Origin: a virus
Virus record (IMG/VR): IMGVR_UViG_3300009151_003928
Span: 1 to 64,000 of that record
Length of the DNA: 64,000 bases
Strand: one strand, 5' to 3'
Every line of letters starts with the position of its first letter. Positions within the stretch are counted from its first letter, which is position 1. The position numbers were made by a program, and so were the translations under genes. Below the pieces are notes generated by a model. It was not told the origin of the DNA and did no database searches. It saw only the letters and a list, made by a program, of their open reading frames with translations. Shown piece after piece: positions 5,477 to 53,240 of the stretch.

Positions 5477-6096
5477 TAATTGATGCTGGCATTTTAAACG
5501 AATGGCAATACAAAGGTCATTGTTATGGCGAATGTATGAGCCATTGGGGTAGTGCATACATGTATGTTCATATCCCAAAGAATGCCAGCTCGTGGACTAA
5601 ACCCAATCTTAAAGATTTTGGGTGGGAGTTTTATAATTATCACGCAGACCAGTTAGACAAACACGCATTGGTTGTGTTGCGTGATCCGGTAGAACGTTGG
5701 GTAAGTGGTATAGCAGAATACTTTACTCTATATCACAACAATTTTAACACATGGACGTCTGATGTGTTTGATTTGGTATTTGATAGAATAACATTTGACG
5801 ATCATACAGAACGTCAAGTAAAATTCTTACATGGGCTAGACACAGATAACTGTACGTTTTTTGATTTTGATAATTATCGTTTAAATTTTAGTGTGTGGAT
5901 CAAAGAAAACTACGGCGATAACAAATACGATCGTTATGAATTCCAACACGTGAGCGAACACAGTCCAGAACGAAAACGGTTCAAAGAAATTTTCAATCGT
6001 GAGTTACAAAATTCTAAATACCTAGAACAAATTAAAAACCATTATGCAAAAGACTACGAATTAATTAACTCAATAAAATACTATGGCTCAAGATAA
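5473..6096 (+). CDS. sulfotransferase-family protein
   Basis: 207 residues. The PAPS-binding signatures are visible: a 5'-phosphosulfate loop YVHIPKNASSW at 31-41 and a 3'-phosphate site VVLRDPVERWVSG at 67-79. These match the carbohydrate sulfotransferase superfamily, which moves sulfate from PAPS to a hydroxyl or amine, usually on a sugar. No signal peptide is seen, so it should act in the cytoplasm. It overlaps the clamp stop (ATGA) and the DpdA-like start. A PAPS source may be encoded in the window: the APS-kinase-like protein at 50977-51768. The acceptor is unknown. Confidence 0.8.
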   Translation: MIIDAGILNEWQYKGHCYGECMSHWGSAYMYVHIPKNASSWTKPNLKDFGWEFYNYHADQLDKHALVVLRDPVERWVSGIAEYFTLYHNNFNTWTSDVFDLVFDRITFDDHTERQVKFLHGLDTDNCTFFDFDNYRLNFSVWIKENYGDNKYDRYEFQHVSEHSPERKRFKEIFNRELQNSKYLEQIKNHYAKDYELINSIKYYGSR

Positions 6097-7699
6097 CTTA
6101 ACTGCTAAACAAAACGACTATGCTGTGTTCCTTCCAGCTATTAGTGGTTTCTATGCCACCTTTGTGGGCAAGCAACGCAATGAAGCTTATGTAGACCCTG
6201 CACGTTTTCCGCAGGGCCTAACAGATATGGAGCAAATGAATTGGTTAAATCCCATCAAGGCATTGTTCCCATATAAGTGGTCACTTTACTCCGGTGGCCA
6301 CGCAAACCTCGATCTGAACAAACAAGATTGGAGCGAGGATATGGTACGCAATCGTGATCCCAACACACTAATGCTAGGCGACTCTGGAGGATTCCAGATT
6401 GCCAAAGGATTATGGGAAGGCGATTGGAAAGCCGGCTCAGGTTGCCCGAAGGCCCAGAAAAAACGTGAACAAGTTTTGGCTTGGCTGGACGGCATCGCTG
6501 ACTATGGTATGACCCTTGATATTCCAACCTGGGTTGCACTGGATAAAGAAGCAGGTAAAAAGTGCGGTATTGGCAGTCATCAGGAAGCTGTTGATGCTAC
6601 CAAATACAACAACGATTACTTTATGGCCAACCGCAAAGGCATCAAGAACGGCGGCGTCAAGATTCTCAATGTGTTACAAGGTGCCAACCACCCCGATGCC
6701 GAAGAATGGTATCAAACAATGAAACACTATTGTGATCCTGCACAACACCCCGACACCCACTTTAATGGTTGGGCCATGGGAGGCCAGAACATGTGTGATG
6801 TAGATTTAATTTTACGCAGATTGGTAATATTGCGTCACGATAACTTGCTACAAGAAGGTGTGCATGATTGGATGCACTTCTTGGGCACAAGCAAACTAGA
6901 ATGGGCAGTACTACTTACAGTAATTCAACGTGCGGTGAGAAAATATGTTAATCCAAAATTCACAATTAGTTTCGACTGCGCCAGCCCTTTTCTGGCCACA
7001 GCTAACGGGCAAGTTTACTTTGAAAACGTATTCCCAAATAATGGAAAATGGAGTTACCGTATGGCTCCATCGGCTGACAATAAAAAGTACGCCCTTGACA
7101 CTCGCAAGTGGAGTGACGGAGTCGTTGCAGATGGAGTCTACCCGAGATGGGAAGATAGTCCTCTTAGCAATTTGTTACAGATGAAAGACATTTGTATCTA
7201 TAAGCCGGGAGTAGTTAAAGCAGGAGTAACCATTGATGAAACTAATTTTCAAGAACCGGGATCATATGACGTATTACCTGATGTTAATAAGAACGGCAAA
7301 TGGGGTAAGACGTCGTGGGATAGTTTTAGTTACGCTCTGTTAATGGGTCATAATGTATGGATGCATTTGACAGCAGTACAAGAAGCTAACCGACGCTTTG
7401 ATATTGGTGAACATCCTGCCATGATGCGTAGTAGCGGACCTGGCGGCGAATACTTTGAACACTTGGTTGAGCGAATTTTTGCAGAACCAGACAAAGACAA
7501 GGCATTGAAAATAGTCGATGATTATAGTACTTACTGGACTGAAATTATCGGTACACGTGGCTTTAAAGGTAAAAAAGCTATCAATGGTACCGCGTATTTT
7601 AATTTATTGTTTGAAGAAGAAGGCAGTTCAACCAGCGAAGAAATTGCGCCCGAAGAAGAATTTGATCAATCAAAACTAGATGCATTGGAGAATGAATGA
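6083..7699 (+). CDS. dpdA: DpdA-like DNA guanine transglycosylase (TGT superfamily)
   Basis: 538 residues. The TGT-type barrel motifs are present in order: LMLGDSGGFQ with D100, NVLQG at 196-200, GWAMGGQ near 229-235, HFLGTSK at 265-271, and ISFDCASPF with D298 as the probable nucleophile. Phage members of this family (DpdA) exchange guanine in DNA for a 7-deazaguanine base, protecting DNA against host restriction. I see no CxCxxC zinc site of tRNA-type TGT after D298, which fits DpdA better than tRNA TGT. folE, queD and queE are in the same window. The acidic C-terminal ~30 residues look disordered. It is flanked by overlapping genes on both sides. Confidence 0.85.
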   Translation: MAQDNLTAKQNDYAVFLPAISGFYATFVGKQRNEAYVDPARFPQGLTDMEQMNWLNPIKALFPYKWSLYSGGHANLDLNKQDWSEDMVRNRDPNTLMLGDSGGFQIAKGLWEGDWKAGSGCPKAQKKREQVLAWLDGIADYGMTLDIPTWVALDKEAGKKCGIGSHQEAVDATKYNNDYFMANRKGIKNGGVKILNVLQGANHPDAEEWYQTMKHYCDPAQHPDTHFNGWAMGGQNMCDVDLILRRLVILRHDNLLQEGVHDWMHFLGTSKLEWAVLLTVIQRAVRKYVNPKFTISFDCASPFLATANGQVYFENVFPNNGKWSYRMAPSADNKKYALDTRKWSDGVVADGVYPRWEDSPLSNLLQMKDICIYKPGVVKAGVTIDETNFQEPGSYDVLPDVNKNGKWGKTSWDSFSYALLMGHNVWMHLTAVQEANRRFDIGEHPAMMRSSGPGGEYFEHLVERIFAEPDKDKALKIVDDYSTYWTEIIGTRGFKGKKAINGTAYFNLLFEEEGSSTSEEIAPEEEFDQSKLDALENE

Positions 7700-11084: not shown

Positions 11085-12275
11085 ATGAGAAAATTATGGT
11101 ACATGGGCCTAGAGCCCTACAAAGCAAGATATACACTACAGTTGCAAGACTGGAACGAAGCAGTCTTTGAACGCCGTGGTATTGACTACGAACTGGTCAC
11201 TGGCGAAACACTCAGCAACGATCAAGCTATTGTTACAGGGCAAGTGCTAGATGCACATGGACGTACTTACTTTGGTATGAGTCAGCTGATGAATCTTGTA
11301 CGCAAGATGAAACAAGGAGAAGTTACAAATGAAGATGTTATCTACTTTGAAGACATGTTTCAACCCGGTATTGAGAGCTTGCCTTATATTATGGATCAAA
11401 TCGATCCTGCTCATCGTCCTCGCATTGCCGTTCGTTGTCTTGCTCAAAGTATTGATCCCGATGACTTTGTACATGTCTGGGGTATGCAAAAGTGGATGGG
11501 CTTGTATGAAAAGATGGTTGACTCATTTGCGGATATCACACTAGCTAGTAATGAAGAAATGGCCATGCATATGAAGATTGCTGGTTGGGAAAGTCCAATT
11601 TATAACATTAGCGGACTAGCATTTGGTAAAGCAGAAGTTCGTGATCGTGTACCCGGTGAACTAAAGCCATTTCAGGATCGTAAACGTCGTGTGGGCTTTG
11701 CCGCACGGTGGGATCAAGAAAAGCAACCCGACTTCTACATGGACTTGATTGAAGCATGGCACGTCAAGCATAAAGATAATTTTCCAATGAATCAAGTTGA
11801 GTTTTGCATTTTTAGTGGTGCTAAACTTAAATCAAATAATGATAGTTACATGGCTCGTACTAGAGATATGCAAGAGCGTGGGCTATTAACAATTTATGAG
11901 GATTTATCTAAAAATGAATACTATAATTTACTTAACGATACTCGTGTGTTATTTAATTGTGCTTTACAAGATTGGGTATCTAACACGGTATCAGAAGCCG
12001 ATACTCTTGGTTGTAATGTGCTATATCCTGCTTATAGGTCTTTCCCTGAGACCTTTGCCAACGATGCTAGTAGGTTATATGTACCTTGGTCAATTGACGA
12101 CGCTATGATTAAACTATGGGGCTTATTGCAAGCACCAAATGCAAATATGGGTAAAATTAGTAACTGGACAGACGGTACTATAGATAGAATTGTAGACATC
12201 CTTGAAGGCAAGGGTGAGCAATGGAAGCGTATGGATACGGATTATCGTAAACATACACATGAATCAAAATATTAA
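11085..12275 (+). CDS. glycosyltransferase-like protein (GT-B type)
   Basis: 396 residues with two Rossmann-like halves. The C-terminal half has GFAARWDQEKQPDFYMDLIEA near 205-225, then YNLLNDTRVLFNCALQDWVSNTVSEADTLGC, which corresponds to the E-containing donor-binding region of GT4-type glycosyltransferases. It should transfer a sugar from a nucleotide donor. The target could be DNA, a lipid or a glycan; GalE at 15444 and the sugar cassette at 44-47 kb could supply donors. The start is 1 base after the MazG stop. Confidence 0.7.
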   Translation: MRKLWYMGLEPYKARYTLQLQDWNEAVFERRGIDYELVTGETLSNDQAIVTGQVLDAHGRTYFGMSQLMNLVRKMKQGEVTNEDVIYFEDMFQPGIESLPYIMDQIDPAHRPRIAVRCLAQSIDPDDFVHVWGMQKWMGLYEKMVDSFADITLASNEEMAMHMKIAGWESPIYNISGLAFGKAEVRDRVPGELKPFQDRKRRVGFAARWDQEKQPDFYMDLIEAWHVKHKDNFPMNQVEFCIFSGAKLKSNNDSYMARTRDMQERGLLTIYEDLSKNEYYNLLNDTRVLFNCALQDWVSNTVSEADTLGCNVLYPAYRSFPETFANDASRLYVPWSIDDAMIKLWGLLQAPNANMGKISNWTDGTIDRIVDILEGKGEQWKRMDTDYRKHTHESKY

Positions 12276-15350: not shown

Positions 15351-15451
15351 GTTTAAATCTAAAAATTGCTTGCTTAATAGGTGGATTCTATGCTATACTG
15401 TTATTAATATCGTGGATAGTGCATGAAGCAACTAAAAAATATAATGAATAA
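15347..15451 (+). CDS. possible 34-residue membrane peptide (GTG start)
   Basis: A GTG overlapping the CDGSH stop opens a 34-codon frame reading LKIACLIGGFYAILLLISWIV followed by HEATKKYNE, a single membrane helix with a polar tail. It overlaps the galE ATG by 8 bases. Other tiny one-helix proteins in this genome are placed in the same overlapping way. The GTG start and lack of a clear ribosome site keep confidence low. Confidence 0.35.
   Translation: MSLNLKIACLIGGFYAILLLISWIVHEATKKYNE
15370..15399 (+). promoter_or_regulatory. possible sigma-70-like promoter for galE
   Basis: TTGCTT (15370-15375), 18-base spacer, TATACT (15394-15399) preceded by TGC, an extended -10 element. It lies 44 bases before the galE ATG. 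Confidence 0.45.
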
Positions 15452-16427
15452 AGTTATTGTAACAGGTGGATGCGGCTACATTGGTAGCCATGTCGCACGA
15501 GCTTTCAAACAAAACGGTGACGAAGTTCTTGTCATTGATCGTGTATTGCGATTACATACTCTAAAGGATGTTGATGGATATCACATTGGCGACTTTGCAG
15601 ACGATGCTAGTCTTGCGGCAATTTATAACTATAATCCTGATATTATTGTGCATTGTGCTGGCACTAGTCTTGTTGGTCCTAGCATGGAAGATCCTGGCGA
15701 ATATTACGACAACAATATTAGCAAGACTATAAAGATGCTAAACTTTGTAAAAGGTTTTGGTAAGAAACCTGTTATCATGTTTAGTTCAAGTGCTAGTGTA
15801 TATGGCGAACCGGACTGCTTGCCTATCAAAGAATATGATGATATCAAGCCTATTAGTCCCTACGGCAATACCAAGGCAATGACAGAAACTATACTACAAG
15901 ATTTCTGGGGTGCGTATGCGTTGCCTAGTATGACATTTAGATATTTTAATGCGGCAGGTGCTGAACCCAATGATTTTGATCTTGGGCAAGAACCAGAAGC
16001 TACTCATATTGTTGCTCGTGTATTAGAGGCCGCTATAGCAGGTCGTGCTGTTACTATCAATGGTTGCGATTTTGACACTGAAGATGGTACGTGTATTCGT
16101 GACTACATTCATGTATGGGATATTGCAAGAGCACACGTTATGGGTGCAGAGTACATGCTAGGCAAGGATGCTATACACCACATAGGGCGCCATGTTTTTA
16201 ATCTAGGAACTAACAAGGGTGTAAGCAATAAGGAAATAGTAGATTACGTGGTTAAAAAATACGGTATTCCGTTTGTTAATTATGGACCAAAACGGCTAGG
16301 TGATCCTGCAGAGCTTATAGCAGATGCAGGAGAGGCAAATGAAAAATTAAAATGGACACCCGAGTATAGCACGATAAATACTATTATAGATTCTGCATAC
16401 AAATGGTATTGCAGTCAAAGAAAATGA
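15444..16427 (+). CDS. galE: UDP-glucose 4-epimerase-like (GalE)
   Basis: 327 residues from ATG 15444 (an in-frame ATG at 15423 adds seven residues). NAD-binding TGGCGYIG at 7-14, catalytic SSSASVYGE and Y140-x3-K144 (YGNTK), and GalE-type segments FRYFNAAGA and GTCIRDYIHVWDIARAH. It should interconvert UDP-glucose and UDP-galactose or the N-acetyl forms. It can feed the glycosyltransferases in this window. Its stop overlaps the next ATG. Confidence 0.92.
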   Translation: MNKVIVTGGCGYIGSHVARAFKQNGDEVLVIDRVLRLHTLKDVDGYHIGDFADDASLAAIYNYNPDIIVHCAGTSLVGPSMEDPGEYYDNNISKTIKMLNFVKGFGKKPVIMFSSSASVYGEPDCLPIKEYDDIKPISPYGNTKAMTETILQDFWGAYALPSMTFRYFNAAGAEPNDFDLGQEPEATHIVARVLEAAIAGRAVTINGCDFDTEDGTCIRDYIHVWDIARAHVMGAEYMLGKDAIHHIGRHVFNLGTNKGVSNKEIVDYVVKKYGIPFVNYGPKRLGDPAELIADAGEANEKLKWTPEYSTINTIIDSAYKWYCSQRK

Positions 16428-16753
16428 TAATCGATATTCTACCACCGGATACACATCTGGTTACTCTTGAAGAAACCCTTAATAAGGTGGGTTGGCCAGA
16501 TCCGGTTAAACTCACCACGCTTAAAAAGAACAAACTTACAATCGTAGATCTGACACAAGAACCACACGATGCCGAGTATGTAGAATGGCTTCACGAATGT
16601 CTATTAGAATGTCATTTAAAATTTATATTACTAAGTCCAAATCCAGAAGATCATTTAGTCAACGACCGTACTGTGTTTTATGCACCAGATCAATCAGACT
16701 ATAATGAAAAGTATCTCCCAGATCTTAAACGATGTATAGATACGCTGAGCTAG
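16424..16753 (+). CDS. hypothetical protein between galE and a radical SAM gene
   Basis: 109 residues from the ATG at 16424, which overlaps the galE stop as ATGA (an upstream ATG at 16403 is inside galE). Alpha/beta pattern: KLTIVDLTQEP, CHLKFILLSPNP and RTVFYAPDQS look like parallel strands, as in a small Rossmann-like domain. It overlaps the radical SAM gene by 22 bases. Unrecognised; a partner protein of the next enzyme is possible. Confidence 0.65.
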   Translation: MIIDILPPDTHLVTLEETLNKVGWPDPVKLTTLKKNKLTIVDLTQEPHDAEYVEWLHECLLECHLKFILLSPNPEDHLVNDRTVFYAPDQSDYNEKYLPDLKRCIDTLS

Positions 16754-17760
16754 TACACTGGATGAGCAATCAGGACAATATGAAAATATTGCCTGCACAA
16801 GTAGATATTGATTTAACCAACGTTTGTAATCAAGACTGCTATTACTGCAACTCAGCAGACTTCAGAGCAGAAAAACCCGTACAAAAGAAATACACCGAGT
16901 ATATTGCCTTACTAGATAAATTATCTAGTTGGAGAGCGCATACTCCAAACAGCTACGGCACAACACATACTATTACGTACCCCGGTGGAGGAGAACCTAC
17001 TGTGTTAGTAAACTACGAACAAGTAATTGAACATACAATAGACTTAGGATTCCTGACCAGCATTACTACAAATGGTAGTAATTTAGATAGACTACTAGAC
17101 ACCGTACACGTAGACAAACTACGTAAAATTGCCTGGATTGGTATTGACATTGATGCTGGCACAGAAACATTGTACGAAGAAATACGTCGTAGTTTAACTG
17201 CTAAAAGTTTGTTTACTAAAGTCAAAGACAATGCACGTGGATTAATTGAGGCAGGAGTTAATGTAGATTTTAAAGCATTAATTAATCCTTTAAACGATAC
17301 TCCCGAAGCAATGAATGATTTATTTAAGTTAGTTGCGGAACTAGGTGGACGTATGCTTTACTTCCGCCCTGTTATACTCGACAATCAAGCATACCCCATC
17401 ACCGAACAGACTATTGCTCGGCTAGAAAAGTGTAGCCAAGAGTACAAGTTACCGTATTGGGCCAATCAAAACAAAACATTGCCACGTAACTATAAGAAAT
17501 GCCACCAGATGTTTCACTTTCCTGTGTTCTGCGCCGATGGAAAGATCTATATTTGTTGCGAAGGCAAAGGCAATCCGCAATTTGAATTAACCAATTGGGA
17601 TCAAGGTGATTTCCGAGATCAGTGGCTTAACGAACGCCACTATGATATATACAATAAAACTCGTGTAGAATTTTGTGCTCCATGTCGTCCTAATATTAGT
17701 AATATTAATATACAAAATATATTAAATAACCCTAAACAAATAGAAACATTATACCTATGA
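16732..17760 (+). CDS. radical SAM enzyme with C-terminal SPASM/twitch-like domain
   Basis: 342 residues. The radical SAM cluster motif is C32-x3-C36-x2-C39 (CNQDCYYC), followed by YPGGGEPT (GGEP). The C-terminal part has KKCHQMFH...FCADGKIYICCEGKG...CAPCRPN, an auxiliary-cluster domain of the usual SPASM/twitch order. This differs from the N-terminal arrangement at 8405 and in the leftward array. Family members modify peptides, sugars or tRNA; no peptide substrate is obvious. Neighbours are a small alpha/beta protein, a DUF6165-like protein, an AMP ligase, a 2OG oxygenase and a PLP enzyme. Confidence 0.88.
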   Translation: MYRYAELVHWMSNQDNMKILPAQVDIDLTNVCNQDCYYCNSADFRAEKPVQKKYTEYIALLDKLSSWRAHTPNSYGTTHTITYPGGGEPTVLVNYEQVIEHTIDLGFLTSITTNGSNLDRLLDTVHVDKLRKIAWIGIDIDAGTETLYEEIRRSLTAKSLFTKVKDNARGLIEAGVNVDFKALINPLNDTPEAMNDLFKLVAELGGRMLYFRPVILDNQAYPITEQTIARLEKCSQEYKLPYWANQNKTLPRNYKKCHQMFHFPVFCADGKIYICCEGKGNPQFELTNWDQGDFRDQWLNERHYDIYNKTRVEFCAPCRPNISNINIQNILNNPKQIETLYL

Positions 17761-18119
17761 ACATTACATTTCCTATTATTGAATTAATTGATCGCTTGGC
17801 CATTGCTGATGTTAAATTTAAACGTACCAAAGGTGCAAATGACGAAGAACTCACTTGGTATATGAATCAAGCACTACCTTACGATTTAACAGAAGTAGAA
17901 GATTTATATACAAATCTTGTTGCTATACATAATCAGATATGGGATTTAGAATCGGAATTAAAAACAGGACGTGAAGCCGAACTGCCTCTAGAAGAAATTG
18001 GACGTAGGGCTATTTCTATACGTGATTGGAACAACCAACGCATTCGTGTTAAGAACGCTATTGCCGAACGGTTAGAATGTCCTGTGAGAGAAATTAAACA
18101 AGATCATTTGAGTGCTTAA
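17757..18119 (+). CDS. DUF6165-like helical protein
   Basis: 120 residues, helical. The beginning FPIIELIDRLAIADVKFKRT and the later AIHNQIWDLESELK, RDWNNQRIRVKNAIAERL resemble DUF6165-type proteins found beside glycan or methyltransferase genes, whose function is unknown. It overlaps the radical SAM stop by 4 bases and the convergent ligase stop by 4 bases. Confidence 0.6.
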   Translation: MNITFPIIELIDRLAIADVKFKRTKGANDEELTWYMNQALPYDLTEVEDLYTNLVAIHNQIWDLESELKTGREAELPLEEIGRRAISIRDWNNQRIRVKNAIAERLECPVREIKQDHLSA

Positions 18120-19195
18120 AATTTAGAATCTAACCAAGTACGAGATACTTTGCCACTTGGACTAACTGGAATTGAATCAACACACTCTAATACCATCGGT
18201 TTACATTGCGGACCTAGGCCGATTAAGTAACGTCGTATTTCTTCAGGGTCACAGGTACCCACGTACAAACATTTAACAGCATCATTTCCAAATATTACGC
18301 AATCTGCTAACCCGGGAATATGATTTAGCAACTGTGTTTCCAAACTGATAGGGTTTAGTTTTTTACCTTTAACATTAATTTGATCACGATGTCGTCCAAG
18401 TAATTTATAGTATCCAGCTTCGTCTTGTTCTGCTAAATCTCCAGTATTATACCAATCATCAGTGAACACAGTTGATCCTTTAATATACAACTGCCCGTCT
18501 ACTATATCAGCTTCTATACCATCAGGTAACCCAATGGTTCCCATTCTACGTTGTCCATTCAATGGATTAGTAAAACAGTGGCTAAGTGCTTCTGTCATTC
18601 CAAACGCTTCAATGATCGGAACATTAAATTTATGTTTCAGTTCTGTAAATAGCGTATCAGGTAAGGCCGCACTGGCACCACGTATAAAACGTAAATGATC
18701 AAATTTAAGTTGGCTGACCACTCTGAGTACATCGGGTACAGCAGTAATAAACGTAGGAGAATGCTTAGCCATTGTGCGAATATCTTTTACAGGAACATAG
18801 GTAGTTTCGCAACCAGCAAATTGGGTGGCCCAGTAAAAGCCTTGGCCATGGGCATGCCATAAACTCATTATGCTTACATAACGATCGTTAGCAGTTATGT
18901 TATATGTGCTACAAATCTTTTGAGCCAGTATATCTATTTGTGATTGGCTAAAACTACAAAATTTACTATCGCCTGTAGTTCCAGAAGTGTACCAAAGCAC
19001 ACGTTCATTTGGATAGTCTCCGCCATTGCGTAGTTGGTCGCCGTCTTTGGTTATTAGTAAACTATAATCTGATTTGGCCAATAGGTATTCGTTTCGGCTA
19101 ACAGCCGCATCGGGGTTAATAACCATAATGCTGTAGTTGGTCAGTTGAGGAATATAATCTTGTGGGTTAGTTACACACAGCACAGCACGTTTCAT
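18116..19195 (-). CDS. AMP-forming acyl/aminoacyl ligase (adenylation enzyme)
   Basis: 359 residues from ATG 19195 (a TTG four codons upstream is possible). ANL-superfamily motifs in order: A3 WYTSGTTGDSK near 68-78, A5 EAFGMTEA near 190, A7 YNTGDL, A8 GRHRDQINVKGKKLNP, and A10 SPSGKVSRTW with the catalytic Lys near 352. It activates a carboxylic acid as an acyl-AMP. It is shorter than typical 500-residue members because the N-terminal lobe is reduced. No carrier protein or condensation domain is nearby. It is the only leftward gene among some 85 rightward ones, so it may be an insertion or separately regulated. Confidence 0.88.
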   Translation of the reverse strand: MKRAVLCVTNPQDYIPQLTNYSIMVINPDAAVSRNEYLLAKSDYSLLITKDGDQLRNGGDYPNERVLWYTSGTTGDSKFCSFSQSQIDILAQKICSTYNITANDRYVSIMSLWHAHGQGFYWATQFAGCETTYVPVKDIRTMAKHSPTFITAVPDVLRVVSQLKFDHLRFIRGASAALPDTLFTELKHKFNVPIIEAFGMTEALSHCFTNPLNGQRRMGTIGLPDGIEADIVDGQLYIKGSTVFTDDWYNTGDLAEQDEAGYYKLLGRHRDQINVKGKKLNPISLETQLLNHIPGLADCVIFGNDAVKCLYVGTCDPEEIRRYLIGLGPQCKPMVLECVDSIPVSPSGKVSRTWLDSKF

Positions 19196-19211
19196 TTTGA
19201 GTACCAAGTAG

Positions 19212-19240
19212 TTGATTTTATTCTGTATTTATAGTATAAT
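19212..19240 (+). promoter_or_regulatory. promoter positioned for a leaderless mRNA
   Basis: TTGATT (19212-19217), 17-base spacer, TATAAT (19235-19240), then only ATTAC before the ATG at 19246. Transcription would start at or next to the A of the start codon. No ribosome site fits between. Confidence 0.6.
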
Positions 19241-19245
19241 ATTAC

Positions 19246-19872
19246 ATGACAGACGATTTTGCCTTATATAAACAAAGCCTCAACAACTGGATGGACTATG
19301 GTGTAATGTACCATGGTCGAGTTGATCCAATCTGGAGTAAACTCGACTTTGATTGGATTAAAACTTACTCAATTGAAGAGTTTGATCACAATGATGTGTG
19401 GGACAGTCCAGCAAGTCAATTTAAATTATGGCAAGAAGACCTGTATCGGTCTTGGGGACACAAGAAAGAAAATACAGAGCATTACATGGCATTCGACCCT
19501 GTAATTGATTTTGATGCCAGACTAATATTTAAAGAAATTGGGTGCCATAAGACTTTTCACAATTTTAATTTTATGCGGATTCCTGCAGGAATGATTATTC
19601 CCTGGCATTGTGATACGTATGCGTACTTTGTAAATAAATTTAATATAGCACCAGAACAAGTCACCCACGTTAAACGTGCCATTGTATTCATGGAAGACTG
19701 GTCGTTTGGGCAAACAGCACAATTTGGTCGTAGTGCGTTAAGTCACTGGCAAGCCGGTGACGTGTATTCTTGGGAACATGCGGCATGGCACGGTGTAGCA
19801 AACTTTGGCAACAAACCTATAACAGTAATGCAGGTAACTTATTATGACACAACCAACACTGACAAATCTTAA
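19246..19872 (+). CDS. Fe(II)/2-oxoglutarate oxygenase-like protein
   Basis: 208 residues with a double-stranded beta-helix pattern. H121-x-D123 (PWHCDTY) and H182 (AAWHGVANFG), with GNKPITVMQVTY after it, form the metal-binding triad layout of 2OG oxygenases such as Asp/Asn beta-hydroxylases. The product could be a hydroxylated small molecule or protein. It diverges from the AMP ligase and overlaps the PLP enzyme, so the three may serve one pathway. Confidence 0.72.
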   Translation: MTDDFALYKQSLNNWMDYGVMYHGRVDPIWSKLDFDWIKTYSIEEFDHNDVWDSPASQFKLWQEDLYRSWGHKKENTEHYMAFDPVIDFDARLIFKEIGCHKTFHNFNFMRIPAGMIIPWHCDTYAYFVNKFNIAPEQVTHVKRAIVFMEDWSFGQTAQFGRSALSHWQAGDVYSWEHAAWHGVANFGNKPITVMQVTYYDTTNTDKS

Positions 19873-20749
19873 AACACTACCATATGGTGGCGCACAATAT
19901 GTAATCAATGCAGATCGTGAAAAGTTTATACACGATAGTATTATTAAAGCCGCAAATGATCGTTGTTTATGGGACACTGACCTACAGCGTACATTCTTGG
20001 ATGAATATTATTCTTGGATACAAAACACAACTCTAAATACTATTACAGGTATTGACAATTTTAAAGTTAAGGCATTTACGCAAGGTGCTACAGAAGCATT
20101 TGATAAATTTTATTTGAAAAATTCCAATGGTAGACTGCGCTATTTTAAAGGTGAGTATATGTATCATCAAGTTGCAGGACGTCAATATTTTAATGAAAAA
20201 TCTAAATTCATCGAAGATGAAGAATTAACCGCCAATGATGTAGTAGTTATTAGTTTGCCCTTTAGTGACACAGGCAACGAACATCCTAGAATGAAAGAAG
20301 TATTAGAGGAATGTACTCGATTAAACATACCTGTGCTAGTTGACTATGCGTACTTAGGTATCTGCAGGGATATTACATTTGATTTAACATATCCGTGCAT
20401 TACCGATGTTACCTTTAGTTTGAGTAAAACATTCCCTGTGCCACATTTGCGTATTGGTATGCGCTTAACTCGTCAAGACGATGATGATGCATTAATGGTT
20501 ATGAACAAAACTGGTTACACAAATCGATTAGCAATACAAGTTGGATTAGATTTAATTCGAACATGGTCTGTAGACTTTATACCAACACACTATAAGCTAG
20601 CACAGGAACAGCTATGTCAAGAATTAGAAGTGGAAGCAAGTAATACAGTTATATTTGGTATAGACTCTAATAACAAATTCCCAGAATACAATAGAGGTGG
20701 ACAAACTAATCGGTTATGTTTTGCTAAAATCCTTGACACTAAGATCTAA
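19844..20749 (+). CDS. PLP-dependent aminotransferase-like enzyme, fold type I
   Basis: 301 residues, shorter than the usual ~400. AFTQGATEAFDKF matches the cofactor phosphate-binding turn, VLVDYAYLGICRD contains the Asp that pairs with the pyridine nitrogen, and FSLSKTFPVPHLRIG carries the Schiff-base Lys near 195. It overlaps the 2OG oxygenase gene by 29 bases. The shortened N- and C-terminal parts leave the substrate open; an amino acid transaminase or decarboxylase is possible. Confidence 0.78.
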   Translation: MTQPTLTNLKTLPYGGAQYVINADREKFIHDSIIKAANDRCLWDTDLQRTFLDEYYSWIQNTTLNTITGIDNFKVKAFTQGATEAFDKFYLKNSNGRLRYFKGEYMYHQVAGRQYFNEKSKFIEDEELTANDVVVISLPFSDTGNEHPRMKEVLEECTRLNIPVLVDYAYLGICRDITFDLTYPCITDVTFSLSKTFPVPHLRIGMRLTRQDDDDALMVMNKTGYTNRLAIQVGLDLIRTWSVDFIPTHYKLAQEQLCQELEVEASNTVIFGIDSNNKFPEYNRGGQTNRLCFAKILDTKI

Positions 20750-20782: not shown

Positions 20783-21559
20783 ATGTCTGATAATAAACTA
20801 GTAGAAGAAGCACCGTATCATCCCGGATACGAAGATGCCGCAATGGCAATGAGCGACAAAGGTTACGAAGAAGGTTACCTAGGTGATGCTATTCGCTTCA
20901 ACATGAAGCGTGATAAGAAACGTTTCTGGGCCGGTGACAACATTAGCGATTACTTACACGAAGGTGATAAGGAAATTTTAATCAACGAAGCCACAGAAGC
21001 TTTTGAAACAGTTTTAGATCGTCTGCTTATCGATCGAGAAAATGATCCTAACTCAAAAGGCACAGCTAAACGATTGGCTAAGATGTATTTTAACGAAATT
21101 ATGGGAGGTCGATATGATCCGGCACCTAGCGCAACAGCTTTTCCAAATGATTCAGCGGATAGATACGAAGGTATGTTGGTTGTTCGTAGCGAACTGCGTT
21201 CTATGTGTAGTCATCATCACCAGCCTGTGTCTGGTGTTGCTTACATCGGAATCATCGCCGCAAATAAACTTATTGGCTTGTCTAAATATACTAGGATCGC
21301 TCAGTGGTGTGCTCGTCGTGGCACACTTCAAGAAGAATTATGTAACGACATCGCAAGAGAAATAATGCGGGCTACTGAGTCAGAGAACGTGGGTGTGTAT
21401 ATACAGGCCACTCACGGATGCTGTGAGAATCGAGGCATTATGGCACACTCGAGTTTAACACAAACAACAGTATTAAAAGGTGCTTTTAACACAGACCCAG
21501 GAACTAAAAAAGAGTTCATGGACAATATCAAACTACAACAGGACTTTGCCCCAAGATGA
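20783..21559 (+). CDS. folE: GTP cyclohydrolase I
   Basis: 258 residues. It converts GTP to dihydroneopterin triphosphate, the first step toward folate and 7-deazaguanines. Zinc and active-site motifs: MCSHHHQPVSG near 142, GLSKYTRIAQWCARR, LQEELCNDIA, and HGCCENRGI carrying the later zinc Cys. An N-terminal ~60-residue extension precedes the core. With queD, queE and dpdA in the window the likely use is DNA modification, though DHFR and ThyA nearby also use folate. Confidence 0.95.
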   Translation: MSDNKLVEEAPYHPGYEDAAMAMSDKGYEEGYLGDAIRFNMKRDKKRFWAGDNISDYLHEGDKEILINEATEAFETVLDRLLIDRENDPNSKGTAKRLAKMYFNEIMGGRYDPAPSATAFPNDSADRYEGMLVVRSELRSMCSHHHQPVSGVAYIGIIAANKLIGLSKYTRIAQWCARRGTLQEELCNDIAREIMRATESENVGVYIQATHGCCENRGIMAHSSLTQTTVLKGAFNTDPGTKKEFMDNIKLQQDFAPR

Positions 21560-22264: not shown

Positions 22265-24652
22265 ATGAAACGTAAACTGCTATACACACTGATGTTTGGC
22301 ACCGTAATTGTGCTAACTGCCTGCGGAGGCGGAGGCGGAGGCGGAGGCGGAAGTCCATCGTACGTTCAGCCTAGCACAAATGCTTCAATACAAACTGTTG
22401 CGAAATCAGTTAATCCTTTATCTGGCGCCGCCGGTTTTATATATTCCACTGTGAATATGTACAATGCCGATTTAACCGGAAATGGCACTGATAATATTGT
22501 TGTAGCCGGATCAAGCACAACTAATACCAGTAGCGTCATGAAAGTGTTTGGTTGGTCTGGTACCAACTTAGTTGATCAAACTGCACAATGGTTTATCCCA
22601 GGCGATAATATTATTAGTCCTGGTGCGGCTAAACTGTCTTTTGGTAACTTTAACGGCAACGGACGGCAAAGTATGTTTGTTGATCCAGGCACTGACAGTA
22701 ATGGTGCTCCGGCAACTTCGGTATCTGTTTTTGTCAACAACGGCAGTCGGTTTACCAAATATAGTATTGCACTATCACACTCACTGGATAGTATGGACAG
22801 TACTACCTTTACCTATAACGGCGTTGACAATGTCTTGGCCCTAGGCTATCCATACTCACAGGCCATTATGGGAAGTACCACTAATGACTTTAGAGCTTAC
22901 GCTGTCAGTAACTTGTCAGGTAGTGCTATTGCTAGTGGTAATTTCTTAGGCACAGGTGATCCAAGTTTTGTAGTAGGACAATTTGGATCATCAATTACCT
23001 TGGGTGCGACTCCTAATGCATTAGTTGGATTCAGTCAAGACGCCGGAACCGGTGCAGTTACTACACCGTTTATTCGCAACTTGCCGGTTCCGCTATTTAA
23101 TACAGCACCGTACTTTGCACAAACTGGCGGCAGTAATACCATCCGTGTTGTTAAATACGACTTTGACGGCTCAGGCGCAGACAGCGTGTTTATTACTGCT
23201 ATGCCAAACAACTGGCAACTAAGCCCATATCAATCTAGTATACAATTCCTCAAAAACAACGGAGCTGGTATATTTACAGACGTAACACCGGCCACAGTAT
23301 CCGGATATGATATGACCAAGGCCGCAAGTACAAATCCAATTATTGCCGACATTTATAATACCGGTTTACCTGCAATTATATTACCAGCAACAAATGGTAC
23401 ACAGGTACTTGCACAAGTCAGTCGTGGACAGTATGTAGCAAGTATGGCCAATACTATTACCACTTTCCAAAACAATGTTAATAGTTTGGTGGGTAGTAGC
23501 CTAGATACCCAAGGCGGAACTACTACTTTTGTTAAAGGGCCAAACAATGCCTTTTATTTATTAGATATGGTTCCACTAAATATGCCAGATGGTTCTAGTC
23601 AGAAGGGTTTTTATTTAACACCACTTAGCACCAGTACGGTTGCTACTAATGCTCAAAGCGCCATTAATCTTGCTCGTACCGTATGGCCTTGGTTAAATGA
23701 CGTTCAGCTTAATGCAATGATTCGAGCAACAGGCACAAATTTTGCCGGCATAACTGTCATTGACGAACAAGCATTATTTTCTCCCACTGGACCATTGGGT
23801 ATATTTAATCGTCCTATCTCGGGTTATATTGCTGGTCTACAAACAGATGGTGCAGATTCACAATTAATTACCACTGATAGATTAGGTCGTACCTTTACCG
23901 CTAGCCTTGCTCCATTACATGCAAATGGGTGGACTAATTCATTTAACATGAACGGTGAGCACATTGACCAACATGAATTGTCTGGCCACACTGAATATTT
24001 AATTGCTGGTAATGTTAACAATGTTGGACCATTGCGTGTTGGTAGTGAAACTCGCAACATGTACAATACTGTTGGCAACGATCCCGGTGTTGGGCCTACA
24101 CTAAATCAAATTAAAAATTATACAATCGGTATTCCTCGAATATGGGAAAAAGGAAATTGGTCAGCGGGCGCACAGTACACTACACTTAGTTATAATCCTT
24201 GGTTGGCATTCGGCGGCAGTTGGGGTATGGTCACCCAGACTGGCAACTTAGACCATACTATCAGATATAACAATAAAGGCTTTACTGCTGTAGCCGGCGG
24301 CACGTATACTACTACAAATATCACACCAGGGTTGATTACCAAGGTAAATGATATCTATGGTGTGTGGGGCGAAACTGGATATAAATGGGCAAACGACCTA
24401 GGTATCTATGCTGGTGTTAAACCTATTGCAATACGAGGAAATGTTGAAGCAAAGTTACCAACTAGTGTTGACACCGGGGGTAATTTAGTGTATACTGGTA
24501 AAACATTAGCACTTCAGAATCAGACTACAGGATATTTAAGAGCACTTTGGACTACTAACATTGATAAGAAAACTATGTATCGTATCAGTGGAACTGTAAT
24601 GAGCAACGGGCAATCACGTATAATGAACGAATTGAGGTATTTCTTTGATTAA
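22265..24652 (+). CDS. FG-GAP-type lipoprotein with possible C-terminal beta-barrel
   Basis: 795 residues. The signal peptide MKRKLLYTLMFGTVIVLTAC ends in a lipobox (LTAC, C20), so it should be lipid-anchored after secretion. Nine glycines follow. FG-GAP/VCBS-like repeats with calcium-loop spacing are DLTGNGTDN near 69, NFNGNGRQS near 128 and DFDGSGADS near 298. From about 540 (RLGRTFTASLAP) the sequence alternates in short amphipathic strands and ends RYFFD, reminiscent of autotransporter barrels. A phage gene of this kind could alter the surface of the infected cell, block superinfection, or form a virion fibre. It is expressed from the shared-type promoter. Confidence 0.75.
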   Translation: MKRKLLYTLMFGTVIVLTACGGGGGGGGGSPSYVQPSTNASIQTVAKSVNPLSGAAGFIYSTVNMYNADLTGNGTDNIVVAGSSTTNTSSVMKVFGWSGTNLVDQTAQWFIPGDNIISPGAAKLSFGNFNGNGRQSMFVDPGTDSNGAPATSVSVFVNNGSRFTKYSIALSHSLDSMDSTTFTYNGVDNVLALGYPYSQAIMGSTTNDFRAYAVSNLSGSAIASGNFLGTGDPSFVVGQFGSSITLGATPNALVGFSQDAGTGAVTTPFIRNLPVPLFNTAPYFAQTGGSNTIRVVKYDFDGSGADSVFITAMPNNWQLSPYQSSIQFLKNNGAGIFTDVTPATVSGYDMTKAASTNPIIADIYNTGLPAIILPATNGTQVLAQVSRGQYVASMANTITTFQNNVNSLVGSSLDTQGGTTTFVKGPNNAFYLLDMVPLNMPDGSSQKGFYLTPLSTSTVATNAQSAINLARTVWPWLNDVQLNAMIRATGTNFAGITVIDEQALFSPTGPLGIFNRPISGYIAGLQTDGADSQLITTDRLGRTFTASLAPLHANGWTNSFNMNGEHIDQHELSGHTEYLIAGNVNNVGPLRVGSETRNMYNTVGNDPGVGPTLNQIKNYTIGIPRIWEKGNWSAGAQYTTLSYNPWLAFGGSWGMVTQTGNLDHTIRYNNKGFTAVAGGTYTTTNITPGLITKVNDIYGVWGETGYKWANDLGIYAGVKPIAIRGNVEAKLPTSVDTGGNLVYTGKTLALQNQTTGYLRALWTTNIDKKTMYRISGTVMSNGQSRIMNELRYFFD
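22325..22351 (+). repeat. hexanucleotide tandem repeat coding for poly-Gly
   Basis: Four and a half copies of GGAGGC directly after the lipobox Cys codon. A six-base unit keeps the frame when copies are gained or lost, so the glycine linker may vary in length between isolates. Confidence 0.85.
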
Positions 24653-26659: not shown

Positions 26660-27160
26660 ATGAATCAAGCAATACAATACAAGTACACAAGTACAAAAGA
26701 ATACCATAACGCATTTCCCTGCGCTTATCGTCAATGGCGTGCCGATAGTCATTGTAACCTAAATCACGGGTATGCATTTAGTATGAAGTTCTATTTTGGA
26801 ACTGATACACTAGATGTGCGTAACTGGGCGGCCGATTACGGTGGGCTTAAAGAACTTAAGGCCATCTTGGAAAGTCAATTTGACCACACTACCTTGGTAG
26901 CACAAGATGATCCAGAACTTGAATTCTACAAAGAAATGGAACGTCGTAAGTTGGCCAAACTAACTATACTGCCAGCATTGGGTTGTGAAGCACTTGCTGA
27001 TCAACTGTACAAATTTATCAATGGTGTTTACATTCCAGATAACTGGGGACCGGGCGAAGCTAGTCGACTTTGGTGTTATCGTGTGGAAGTTCGTGAAACA
27101 CAAAGCAACATGGCTTTCCGTGAAGGCCATCGTGAATGGAATGAAGATCTATTTGCTTAA
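26660..27160 (+). CDS. queD: QueD-like 6-carboxy-tetrahydropterin synthase
   Basis: 166 residues of the PTPS fold. SHCNLNHGYAFSMKFYF at 30-46 carries the catalytic Cys (C32) and zinc-type His residues, FDHTTLV near 74-80 holds the Asp-His pair, and VEVRETQSN near 142-150 contains the substrate-binding Glu. It converts dihydroneopterin triphosphate, made by FolE, to 6-carboxytetrahydropterin for QueE. The usual C-x3-HGH is C-x3-HGY here, so the zinc site is altered. It has its own promoter. Confidence 0.85.
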   Translation: MNQAIQYKYTSTKEYHNAFPCAYRQWRADSHCNLNHGYAFSMKFYFGTDTLDVRNWAADYGGLKELKAILESQFDHTTLVAQDDPELEFYKEMERRKLAKLTILPALGCEALADQLYKFINGVYIPDNWGPGEASRLWCYRVEVRETQSNMAFREGHREWNEDLFA

Positions 27161-27317: not shown

Positions 27318-27579
27318 TAAAATAAATGAAATTCTAGATATCCTCCAGGAGGAGTGTGCCGAAGTAATTGTTGCCATTAGCAAGATTCGCCGATTTGGAA
27401 TTGACAACACATATAAAGATGGCGGAACACAACGTGAGCACTTGGTTCAAGAGCTTGGTGATGTTACACTACTAATTGAATTGCTTCAAGCACACGGTGT
27501 TTACACCGAACAAGAACTAATCAACGCACAACGCCGAAAGGCAGTAAAATTAACTAAATGGTCAAAGATATATGAGTAA
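27310..27579 (+). CDS. small MazG-like protein
   Basis: 89 residues from ATG 27310. The core ILQEECAEVIVAISKIRRFG...HLVQELGDVTLLIELL has the E-E-x-x-E and E-x-x-D metal ligands of the MazG/NTP-pyrophosphohydrolase superfamily in minimal form. It overlaps the membrane peptide and queE by 8 bases each. Inside the queD-queE pair it might guard nucleotide triphosphates used for the modified base, an inference. Confidence 0.8.
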   Translation: MTDKINEILDILQEECAEVIVAISKIRRFGIDNTYKDGGTQREHLVQELGDVTLLIELLQAHGVYTEQELINAQRRKAVKLTKWSKIYE

Positions 27580-28453
27580 AATCAAAATAGCAGAATTATT
27601 TTATAGCATACAAGGCGAAGGCCGTTACATGGGTGTACCAAGTGTTTTCTTGCGTACATTTGGATGTAATTTTAAATGTGCTGGCTTTGGTATGCCACGT
27701 GGCGAATCTAGCCACGAGGCTACTGATATTGCGGCCACACACAAAATGATTGAGTCTTTTCAAAAGTATGAAGACTTGCCCTTAGTTAGTACAGGCTGTG
27801 ACAGCTATGCTAGTTGGCATCCAGACTTTAAAGACCTGAGTCCAATGCTTGAAAGCAACGCTATTGTTAATCGAATTATGGAAATACTTCCACATAAACG
27901 TTGGGAAGAAGAACATTTGGTTATTACAGGTGGTGAACCATTACTAGGGTGGCAACGTGCTTATGAAGATTTGTTAGAACATCCAAGTATGTGGCGGTTG
28001 CGTGAAATTACATTTGAAACAAACGGAACTCAACGATTGTCCGATGACTTTAAAAAGTATTTGTTTAAATGGTTAAAAGATGAACACAAAGAGTCCGTTG
28101 GTGCTACTAGTCCGCGAGTGATTACATTTAGTGTAAGTGCTAAACTACCATGTTCAGGCGAATCGTGGGATGAAGCAATTCTACCCAAGGTTGTTTGCGA
28201 ATACGAATGGTATGGTACAGCATATCTTAAATTTGTTATTGCTAACGAAGCAGATTTTAAAGATGCTGAGTGTGCCATTGCGGCTTATCGCAAAGAAGGA
28301 TTTAAAGGACATGTTTACTTAATGCCAGTAGGTGGTGTGGAAAGTGTGTACGCAATGAACAATAAGAATGTAGCATTGTTGGCTATGAAAAACGGACTAC
28401 GCTATAGCGATCGATTACAAGTTCCATTATTTAAAAATGAGTGGGGTACTTAA
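27572..28453 (+). CDS. queE: QueE-like 7-carboxy-7-deazaguanine synthase (radical SAM)
   Basis: 293 residues. It begins KIAELFYSIQGEGRYMGVPSVFLRTFGCNFKC, typical of QueE (YSIQGEG then F-R-x-x-G-C-N). Cysteines C32 and C36 are in place, but the third canonical position is Phe39; C76 in GCDSYASW lies where QueE usually reads C-D-T, after about 37 inserted residues. ITGGEPLL near 116 is the SAM-binding GGEP. It rearranges the QueD product to 7-carboxy-7-deazaguanine. No QueC is in this window to make preQ0. Confidence 0.88.
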   Translation: MSKIKIAELFYSIQGEGRYMGVPSVFLRTFGCNFKCAGFGMPRGESSHEATDIAATHKMIESFQKYEDLPLVSTGCDSYASWHPDFKDLSPMLESNAIVNRIMEILPHKRWEEEHLVITGGEPLLGWQRAYEDLLEHPSMWRLREITFETNGTQRLSDDFKKYLFKWLKDEHKESVGATSPRVITFSVSAKLPCSGESWDEAILPKVVCEYEWYGTAYLKFVIANEADFKDAECAIAAYRKEGFKGHVYLMPVGGVESVYAMNNKNVALLAMKNGLRYSDRLQVPLFKNEWGT

Positions 28454-50984: not shown

Positions 50985-51768
50985 TTCCTAAACTCTTACG
51001 TATCTTAGTAGCACTAATATCCGTTATCTTTTCATCAAACGTTTCTTCGCCGCTGGTATAACCAACTCCACGACCCCATCCAATATGTACAATGTTAGGT
51101 ACAACTTGTATGTCATACAATCCTTGATATAGCGGATCTAGATCCTGTTTAATAAAGCTCTTGACTTTTTCTACTTCAAACGGATTGCTACCTTGCCAAC
51201 CTTGTACGTCACGCACTTGTATAATAACTTGTCCAGTCCGGGCTAACAGTCTTTCAAATAGCGCACGGTGTCCGTCGTGCCATGGTTGCCAGCGACCTAA
51301 CATCTGTACTGTTTCTTTACGCCAATCAAATACAGGGCGTCTGCGGTTTTCTACAATATGTTCAGCAATAAAGTCTGCCCATTTAACAGCGTTTTGCTCG
51401 TTAACACGGAAGTCGTATACTTCAGGTTCCACAAACATTTTGTTTGTATCAGCATATCGACCTTCGCGGATAGTATCCATCCAAACAGTCCAGTCTGCTT
51501 TGAAGTTATTACGCATTTCTACCAAAGGTGCAACAAAGTCGCAAAGTGCGTAGTCGGTTCCACAAGTGTCTGCTAGGTCGTACATGCGTTTGCTTTGACG
51601 AATACGGCCTGCTTCACTAAAATCCCAATCGTCAAATTGTTTACGAACTTCGTCGGCATTAAACCATGTTACGGTTTTGCCACAGTCTTCTAATAGCTTT
51701 TTTAGTTCTGTTGCTAGATAAGTTTTTCCTGAGCCAGGAAGGCCCATAATTAAAATACGTTGTGTCAT
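50977..51768 (-). CDS. APS kinase-like domain fused to a nucleotidyltransferase-like domain
   Basis: 263 residues. Residues 1-150 resemble adenylylsulfate kinase: Walker A GLPGSGKT at 9-16, FNADEVR near 36-42, FSEAGRIRQSKRM near 50-62. Residues 155-263 look like an HxGH-class nucleotidyltransferase: GRWQPWHDGHRAL with H164 and H167, and ISATKIRKS at 251-259. The kinase half would make PAPS from APS. The second half may be a sulfurylase-like or cytidylyl/adenylyl transferase. PAPS could serve the sulfotransferase at 5473. It overlaps DUF2061 and the carbamoyltransferase. Confidence 0.75.
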   Translation of the reverse strand: MTQRILIMGLPGSGKTYLATELKKLLEDCGKTVTWFNADEVRKQFDDWDFSEAGRIRQSKRMYDLADTCGTDYALCDFVAPLVEMRNNFKADWTVWMDTIREGRYADTNKMFVEPEVYDFRVNEQNAVKWADFIAEHIVENRRRPVFDWRKETVQMLGRWQPWHDGHRALFERLLARTGQVIIQVRDVQGWQGSNPFEVEKVKSFIKQDLDPLYQGLYDIQVVPNIVHIGWGRGVGYTSGEETFDEKITDISATKIRKSLGIE

Positions 51769-53240
51769 GAATATACCTTTACGTTATAGAGTTTTTCAAA
51801 GCGATCTGCATCAGCGCGGTCATTGACCATTGGTTCACCTTTAATGTTAAGACTTGTGTTTAATAACATTGGACAACCAGTTAAGACATACCATTTTTCT
51901 AGGAGTTCTCTAATTCCTGAACTATTAGCTGGTACTGTTTGTATACGACTAGTGCCATCATAGTGGACAATAGCAGGAAATAACTTAGGGTGGCGACAGC
52001 GACCCACCACTTGCATATAACTGCTATCAACAAACCCACTAGGCATGTCAAAGTAATCGTTAACGTGCTCTGCCAAAATAATCGGCGCAAATGGTCTAAA
52101 TTCTTGTCTACGTTTAATTTGGTTGACACGGTCTTTTATGTCCGGACCCCGCGGGTCGGCGAGTAGACTTCTGTTTCCAAGGGCCCTTGGTCCAAATTCT
52201 GCTCTTCCAGAGGCCACCCCCACGATCTTATCTCTAAGGAGTCCGTCGAGCGCGGTGTTAACTGGATAAGGACCGGGAATACTGTGTCCGAGAAATGCAT
52301 GGTCAAACTGTATTCTGCCGCCGTGGACAAGAGCGGCCGCACCAAGGCTACTACCAGCATCACCAGGGTTAGGCATGATCCATACTTTTTCAAAATAATC
52401 ACCAAGATTTCTATTAGCTAAACAGTTAAGGGCAACACCGCCCATATATACCAAGTTTGTACTCCACCCAAAGTCTTTTGCGCGGCGCATAACATTATAT
52501 ATCAAATTTTCACAAAAAGCCTGTGCAGAACTGGCAATATCTTCAACATCAAATTTTGAGTTCCACTCGTAGCTGGTACCAGTGTGTAAATTTTCTTTAA
52601 ACTTGATGTTCCACTCGTCTGCTAGTAGTTGCATACTCATTGACGTACTGGCTTTATCAGTCCCATATGCGGCCATACCCATTAAGATGTATTCATCTTC
52701 CATGGGCTTTAGTCCAGCTTGTTGTGTCATTGCTGTATAAAACAATCCTATGCTGTGTGGATACTTCTGCCCCCATAGCCGATGATACTGTGCCCGTCCA
52801 TTGACATAATGAGCACCCCAAATACTAATTGTGTCCCACTCACCAATTGCATCAATAACAACTACAGTAGCTCGATCAAAGGTACTAGTTTGGAATCCAG
52901 CCGCGGCATGACTTAAATGATGATTGTGCGAACTATATTCTGGAAATTTAAAACCGCAAAGTTGTTTTTTTAATATTTGCTGTACAGTAAATTTGTTCCA
53001 TTCTATTCCTTCTCCACTATACCATCTACGTAACTGTTTTGCCCACGGACGTTCATAATATGCAACATGGTATATGGGACTATGTTGCATGACGTCGGTA
53101 AACAATTCACTGGCAAATTCAGCATCGTTTTTAATTTTGCTGTAACGTTCACTATGGCCTGCAAATAGTATCTCTCCGTGAGGGTTTAATACTGTTGCGG
53201 CCGCATCATGAAAGCCAGCCGAGATTCCTAATATATTCAT
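51765..53240 (-). CDS. O-carbamoyltransferase (NodU/CmcH/TobZ family)
   Basis: 491 residues. ILGISAGFHDAAATVL at the start, HNHHLSHAAAGF at 105-116 (metal-binding His set), VVVIDAIGEWDT, YMGGVALNCLANRNL and ASGRAEFGPRALGNRS near 347 make this family clear. It uses carbamoyl phosphate and ATP to carbamoylate a hydroxyl, usually on a sugar or antibiotic. It overlaps the SGNH gene by 35 bases and the kinase by 4. A G+C-rich stretch with shifted codon use covers the GRAEFGPRALGNRS core. Confidence 0.93.
   Translation of the reverse strand: MNILGISAGFHDAAATVLNPHGEILFAGHSERYSKIKNDAEFASELFTDVMQHSPIYHVAYYERPWAKQLRRWYSGEGIEWNKFTVQQILKKQLCGFKFPEYSSHNHHLSHAAAGFQTSTFDRATVVVIDAIGEWDTISIWGAHYVNGRAQYHRLWGQKYPHSIGLFYTAMTQQAGLKPMEDEYILMGMAAYGTDKASTSMSMQLLADEWNIKFKENLHTGTSYEWNSKFDVEDIASSAQAFCENLIYNVMRRAKDFGWSTNLVYMGGVALNCLANRNLGDYFEKVWIMPNPGDAGSSLGAAALVHGGRIQFDHAFLGHSIPGPYPVNTALDGLLRDKIVGVASGRAEFGPRALGNRSLLADPRGPDIKDRVNQIKRRQEFRPFAPIILAEHVNDYFDMPSGFVDSSYMQVVGRCRHPKLFPAIVHYDGTSRIQTVPANSSGIRELLEKWYVLTGCPMLLNTSLNIKGEPMVNDRADADRFEKLYNVKVYS

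Follow-up and report, generated by a model that had tools for sequence, protein, structure and literature searches.

A modular gene cassette with a compact viral AMP ligase and a putative late promoter in a large T4-like virus

Why does a lone acid-activating enzyme stand reversed within a row of apparently biosynthetic genes, and what would these genes make together? The locus that raises this question lies in a viral DNA stretch of 64,000 nt (hereafter the window), positions 1 to 64,000 of IMGVR_UViG_3300009151_003928, whose full viral record is a 76-kb fragment. An earlier, sequence-only reading had placed at 16424–20749 an AMP ligase, a 2-oxoglutarate (2OG) oxygenase-like protein, a pyridoxal phosphate (PLP) enzyme, a SPASM-type radical S-adenosylmethionine (rSAM) enzyme and a DUF6165-like protein, and had proposed a small-molecule pathway. 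All five genes are present where it placed them, the ligase, oxygenase, PLP enzyme and rSAM assignments being borne out by Pfam and motifs, and each has strongly conserved homologues in other viral contigs, so that they are not chance open reading frames (ORFs). The ligase is, as that reading had it, the sole minus-strand gene of the block. PolB of the window is closest to those of the jumbo T4-like phages Phosso and Atu_ph07, and gp23 capsids occur in phage contigs with the same ligase; on these sequence grounds, the source is a large T4-like virus of bacteria. The explanation that we favour, tentatively and at slightly less than an even chance, is that a variable cassette between a glycosyltransferase (GT)-like gene and folE makes a decorated amino sugar, for which the ligase, acting late, provides an acyl group; for this scheme we infer the substrates, the reaction order, the acceptor, the location and the timing of expression.

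Comparison of gene neighbourhoods indicates that the cassette has the order GalE–rSAM–DUF6165-like–(2OG oxygenase)–PLP aminotransferase–(LbH N-acyltransferase)–(inverted ligase), where LbH denotes a left-handed β-helix protein, and lies between a putative GT and folE. In the window, its conserved left border is the putative glycosyltransferase GT1 (11085–12275, plus strand), whose homologue in Sinorhizobium phage Phosso is annotated as a glycosyltransferase (hmmsearch 1.7e-90), and its conserved right border is the GTP cyclohydrolase I gene folE (20783–21559, plus strand; Pfam 5.6e-39). In Phosso the two borders are adjacent and the site is empty, GT1 and folE being ~0.5 kb apart as against 8.5 kb in the window. 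The interval contains a GalE-type nucleotide-sugar epimerase (15423–16427, plus strand; NCBIfam TIGR01179 galE, 301.7 bits, exceeding the cut-off), the rSAM protein (16732–17760, plus strand), the DUF6165-like protein (17757–18119, plus strand), the ligase (18116–19195, minus strand), the 2OG-Fe(II) oxygenase-like protein (19246–19872, plus strand) and a fold-type I PLP enzyme of the aspartate aminotransferase (AAT) superfamily (19844–20749, plus strand), which occupies the aminotransferase slot.

A survey of 50 non-redundant, well-flanked loci centred on the DUF6165-like gene found nearby rSAM in 28, the half-size aminotransferase mini-DegT in 29, GalE in 29, folE in 25 and a GT-like gene in 19, with 2OG oxygenase in 10, ligase in 7 and the PLP enzyme in 2. 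In this and the other association tests related phages were counted and loci were sampled by homology searches, so that p-values are approximate and ignore phylogeny. A fixed five-gene operon is rejected by these neighbourhood surveys. The exact five-gene set is rare while its functional slots are conserved, since ligase and PLP enzyme share a contig in only 2 of the 27 PLP-containing contigs tested, one of them through a weak partial match (E 4e-7). One contig (L324) has the order GalE–rSAM–DUF6165–GT–x–2OG–PLP–LbH–inverted ligase–TctC–folE. The biosynthetic set of the sequence-only reading thus stands as a modular cassette conserved in many large phages, rather than as a chance cluster, but not as a fixed pathway; its genes do in part occur independently, the 2OG–PLP pair being found mostly without the ligase and often next to an amidinotransferase.

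The PLP enzyme in the aminotransferase slot is matched by Pfam Aminotran_1_2 (E 3e-4), its AlphaFold model (predicted local distance difference test, pLDDT, of 91) matches the fold of the CobD/HisC/MppP group, and D167 (PLP Asp), K195 (Schiff-base Lys), R203 (phosphate Arg) and R290 (carboxylate Arg) are invariant, in agreement with the AAT superfamily. Mini-DegT is a protein of ~195 residues whose nearest structures are perosamine synthase and other DegT sugar aminotransferases. The slot is filled either by an AAT-type PLP enzyme or by mini-DegT, never by both within five genes. Contigs L304 and L305 share ~85% DNA identity over GalE–rSAM–DUF6165–ligase and over folE, and their sole difference is the slot between ligase and folE, which holds the AAT-type enzyme in one and mini-DegT in the other. 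Such an exchange favours aminotransferase activity for the PLP enzyme. Half-size DegT proteins with intact Asp and Lys are present in ~600 or more viral stretches, and among the best 80 the gene usually lies between GalE and folE.

The ligase belongs to a compact family, aligning at 55–91% identity over the whole length. At least 108 viral loci came out of a profile search; 80 were retained, and motifs were surveyed in 60 non-redundant sequences. Translation starts in nearly all homologues at the ATG corresponding to position 19195, giving 359 residues, rather than at the TTG at 19207. The Pfam AMP-binding match (9.9e-27) exceeds the cut-off, and the motifs of the ANL superfamily (acyl-CoA ligase type) are invariant or nearly so in the 60 sequences: A3 YTSGTTG, A5 (E)xFGMTE, A7 TGD, A8 GRxxD...G with its hinge, and A10 GK with its lysine. 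The window's ligase nevertheless lacks the full-length N-terminal subdomain of that superfamily, with 359 residues compared with ~500, and the profile alignment begins at about residue 42, facing residue 138 of 5ie0. A scan of a genome collection returned only generic CoA ligases with ~26% identity or less over the protein length, apart from one short fragment at 32%; the family therefore looks restricted to viruses, and the same result led us to reject the candidate of bacterial homologues with known context. In one phage locus (L115, 8001–9080 region), a mini-DegT gene is flanked by two ligase genes, of 359 and 379 residues.

Sequence profile and fold (predicted model, pLDDT 82.5) both place the ligase nearest to the oxalyl-CoA synthetases AAE3 (PDB 5ie0) and Pcs60p (8aff), the malonyl-CoA synthetase MatB (4fut) and the o-succinylbenzoyl-CoA synthetase MenE (5bus). 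It resembles these enzymes in its intact A3, A5, A7, A8 and A10 motifs, in HxHG within A4, in FIR..S before A5 and in NPL after A5; it differs in lacking ~130 N-terminal residues, in its low identity (20–24%) and in its viral distribution. Pocket residues R169, R172, W113, H114, H116, Q118 and H206 vary little or not at all among the 60 sequences, which suggests one substrate common to the whole family. The A4 position is His114 in 59 of the 60 sequences, a position that we take to be that of Asp235 in GrsA and the amino-acid adenylating A-domains. With His where those domains have Asp, and with CoA ligases for small diacids as its structurally nearest relatives, the enzyme is unlikely to act on amino acids; amino-acid activation was rejected on both motif and fold. 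Adenylation domains of non-ribosomal peptide synthetases are marked by the Asp235 equivalent and by a carrier protein, and the enzyme has neither: the absence of a carrier protein, pointed out in the sequence-only reading, extends to the family, as the 150 small ORFs examined around 61 ligase loci contain no GxDSL motif. Coenzyme A (CoA) as acyl acceptor would follow by analogy with the nearest relatives only.

Genes that accompany the ligase elsewhere point towards acylation. LbH proteins matching PglD, VioB, LpxD and perosamine N-acetyltransferase lie near mini-DegT in 10 of 24 loci with ligase and in 1 of 58 without (82 non-redundant loci; Fisher p 8e-6), and the proposed amino sugar is probably N-acylated in many phages. 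A TctC/Bug carboxylate-binding protein with a signal peptide adjoins the ligase in nine locus clusters (Fisher p 3e-5); all ten members examined match TctC, and their nearest structures are binding proteins of the TTT family. The two genes are direct neighbours in L047, L104, L108, L134–L141 and L324, and in some phages a nitronate-monooxygenase-like gene stands between ligase and mini-DegT. An extension of the amino-sugar scheme, which we regard as unlikely, is that large freshwater phages run their own late capture of carboxylates, the periplasmic TctC/Bug protein and the viral-only ligase together providing an unusual acyl group for an amino sugar that the phage itself makes; if true, the acyl donor for a phage glycan would come from the phage and not from the host.

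The sequence-only reading noted the opposite strand of the ligase without accounting for it; a late promoter found across the family does so. The T4 late promoter is TATAAATA, its first position being commonly A or T (PMC1524935), and that of cyanophages is NATAAATA (PMC2984593). The 64-kb window has two copies of TATAAATA as against 7.25 expected, and one of them lies on the correct strand upstream of the ligase (19226–19233, minus strand), 30 nt before the start codon, as in a T4-type late gene. Across the family, WATAARTA occurs in 34 of 60 ligase upstream regions where ~3 are expected, namely in 12 of 15 at the folE site (1.1 in dinucleotide shuffles) and in 22 of 45 elsewhere (1.8 in shuffles). 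Late-promoter motifs are not enriched upstream of folE, mini-DegT, GalE, GT1 or the PLP enzyme, and a sigma-70 scan gave no excess over shuffles. In related genomes, portal, baseplate hub, virion, tail and holin genes lie behind TATAAATA. A raw count of downstream ORFs, 28 of 42 for TATAAATA and 17 of 31 for a reversed-motif control, does not clearly separate the two, so the case for a late promoter rests on the identities of downstream genes and on the family-wide upstream test. The upstream regions of gp23, which lies inside an operon, contain no motif and told less than the genes downstream of TATAAATA, and the tail-tube family PF06841, tried as a late-gene marker, gave no matches. Judged from its upstream sequence, the ligase is most likely a solitary late gene set among early or middle genes, and owes its reversed orientation to a T4-type late promoter of its own. 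Near PolB (L060, L082, L124 and similar loci, ~20 in number), exactly 5 nt separate the end of WATAARTA from the ligase ATG, a spacing that would give a leaderless late mRNA. In another ligase-carrying phage (G124, L432:653–1636), TATAAATA is directly followed by a gene whose product, judged by eye, looks like a dicarboxylate-binding protein of TRAP type (DctP-like) and matches a PHROG without known function.

The same promoter lends itself to a different explanation, namely that the ligase is an independent late gene (moron) at a recombination hot spot beside folE, metabolically unconnected with the oxygenase and the PLP enzyme and serving another purpose such as late activation of a host carboxylate. 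The ligase occurs beside folE, near PolB and at further sites, is rare on contigs with the PLP enzyme, and in 20 of 43 well-flanked loci has neither aminotransferase within four genes, all of which agrees with this explanation. However, near PolB and apart from the folE site, ligase and mini-DegT are joined in units on the same strand (L060, L062, L124), LbH acyltransferases track the ligase, and L324 repeats the functional set of the window in a different gene order. Taken together, a moron seems somewhat unlikely. The amino-sugar explanation has its own difficulties, to which those 20 loci belong: having its own promoter, the ligase may act apart from its neighbours; within five genes of 61 ligase loci mini-DegT is found 26 times and the PLP enzyme three times, and most mini-DegT loci have no ligase; the closest folds of the PLP enzyme are mixed, including decarboxylases, C–S lyases and an arginine oxidase besides aminotransferases; GT1 has no confident PDB, Pfam or structural match; and neither an LbH acyltransferase nor a TctC protein was found in the record of the window, although this record is a 76-kb fragment.

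The rSAM protein (Pfam Radical_SAM 4.6e-12) combines a CX3CX2C core with C-terminal cysteines in the pattern CX12GX4C...CX2C, invariant in six homologues. This corrects the SPASM assignment: of the full seven-cysteine set (CX9-15GX4C–CX2CX5CX3C–C), only CX12GX4C and one CX2C are present, a Twitch-like pattern. A viperin identity was rejected on an NCBIfam viperin score of 55.6 bits against a cut-off of 180 bits and on the extra C-terminal cysteines; the match of the core to PADLOC prokaryotic viperin (pVip) models (E 1.9e-23) is probably due to the rSAM core that they have in common. The DUF6165-like protein adjoins rSAM and an aminotransferase in many phages. A six-frame search at E up to 10 gave it no match to Pfam PF19662, while hhalign profile–profile comparison with bacterial DUF6165 (probability 91%, E 1e-6, 111 columns) indicates distant homology. 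The window's oxygenase has no Pfam match of its own; in its family of 17 sequences, four match Asp_Arg_Hydrox, the iron triad H121-x-D123...H182 of 2OG-Fe(II) oxygenases is invariant and R144 is also kept.

Could the product be a small molecule after all? Of 23 loci with the PLP enzyme, 18 have the 2OG gene near it and 12 have an amidinotransferase of StrB1 type (E 2e-113 against inosamine-phosphate amidinotransferase) behind the pair. This feature, together with MppP and CobD, which are among the nearest folds of the PLP enzyme and act on free amino acids or their derivatives, would suit a soluble or secreted compound such as a hydroxylated amino acid or a guanidino compound. The window contains no amidinotransferase, however, and the neighbourhoods are dominated by GalE, GT-like genes, sugar-type aminotransferases and sugar N-acyltransferases. 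Because these are the partner genes, a glycan is likelier, and we consider a small molecule quite unlikely; the biosynthetic part of the earlier proposal is retained and its product revised. The run 2OG oxygenase–PLP enzyme–StrB1-type amidinotransferase recurs in many phages (L002–L041 and cyanophage S-SCSM2R, L382). In S-SCSM2R, one cluster unites GTs, mini-DegT, rSAM, 2OG oxygenase, amidinotransferase and GT2, and a phage guanidino-sugar pathway is possible. The parallel with the StrB1 pathway of streptomycin lies in the PLP enzyme adjoining a StrB1-type amidinotransferase in relatives; it ends at the window, which lacks the amidinotransferase, and no cyclitol genes were seen.

The position of the cassette raises another possibility, that it decorates phage DNA by extending a 7-deazaguanine modification, with GT1 as a DNA glycosyltransferase. 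It is flanked by PolB, clamp and GT1 to the left and by folE, QueD-like and queE-like genes to the right, and the proximity of GT1 and folE is kept in Phosso. Against this, many loci of the PLP enzyme and of the ligase are distant from folE, inspection by eye revealed no hydroxymethyl-pyrimidine pathway, GT1 does not match DNA glycosyltransferases and the similar gene set of S-SCSM2R sits among several GTs; decoration of DNA is very unlikely. The folE, QueD-like and queE-like genes and a TGT/DpdA-like gene identified by eye (6083–7699, 20783–21559, 26660–27160 and 27572–28453) do suggest a 7-deazaguanine DNA modification in this virus.

In the amino-sugar scheme, GalE would supply or isomerize a nucleotide sugar, the Twitch-type rSAM and 2OG oxygenase would oxidize it, and the PLP enzyme, or mini-DegT in the same slot of other phages, would install an amine. 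The inverted ligase, expressed late from its own T4-type promoter, would turn a small polar carboxylic acid into an acyl thioester for an acylation step, and phage glycosyltransferases could attach the modified amino sugar to a glycan on the virion or host surface. Enzyme pairs of this kind are known from the bacillosamine, perosamine and viosamine pathways, where LbH N-acyltransferases (PglD, VioB, LpxD) work with DegT, and the same pair is found beside the ligase in other phages; mini-DegT, however, has about half of the size usual for DegT, the phage appears to make the acyl donor itself, and the window has an AAT-type enzyme and no LbH gene. Phage-borne lipopolysaccharide (LPS) clusters are known, P-SSM2 having 24 LPS genes (PMC2984593), and the LPS or polysaccharide clusters of T4-like cyanophages likewise combine sugar and glycosyltransferase genes thought to remodel the host surface (PMC2984593). 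In contrast to these, the present cassette is short and swappable, confined to one site between GT1 and folE, and includes, besides rSAM, DUF6165-like and 2OG enzymes, an acid ligase that is probably expressed late.

Other features of the window lie apart from this argument. A small ORF of 116 residues (16403–16753, plus strand), to which no function is assigned, is retained in one relative (L001, 62%). About seven rSAM genes, several alike in sequence, form a run on the minus strand at 55782–63897; a NodU-like carbamoyltransferase adjoins SGNH-type genes at 51765–53240; and a lipoprotein-like ORF of 795 residues (22265–24652) shows, by eye, nine consecutive glycines behind the lipobox together with repeat-like FG-GAP motifs.

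Within the library searched, the literature on the ligase and DUF6165 yielded nothing relevant, and we regard as new the compact, viral-only family of ligases and the late promoter conserved in it, the exchange of two aminotransferase types in one slot and the DUF6165-like/Twitch-rSAM/mini-DegT context. The cassette is modular in that a PLP enzyme of one family replaces that of another in a single slot. DUF6165-like, Twitch rSAM and mini-DegT proteins, for which no function was previously known in this setting, thereby gain a common genetic context, and with the cassette and its ligase family the products of sugar-type gene clusters in jumbo T4-like phages, and the stage at which these clusters act, become open to experiment.

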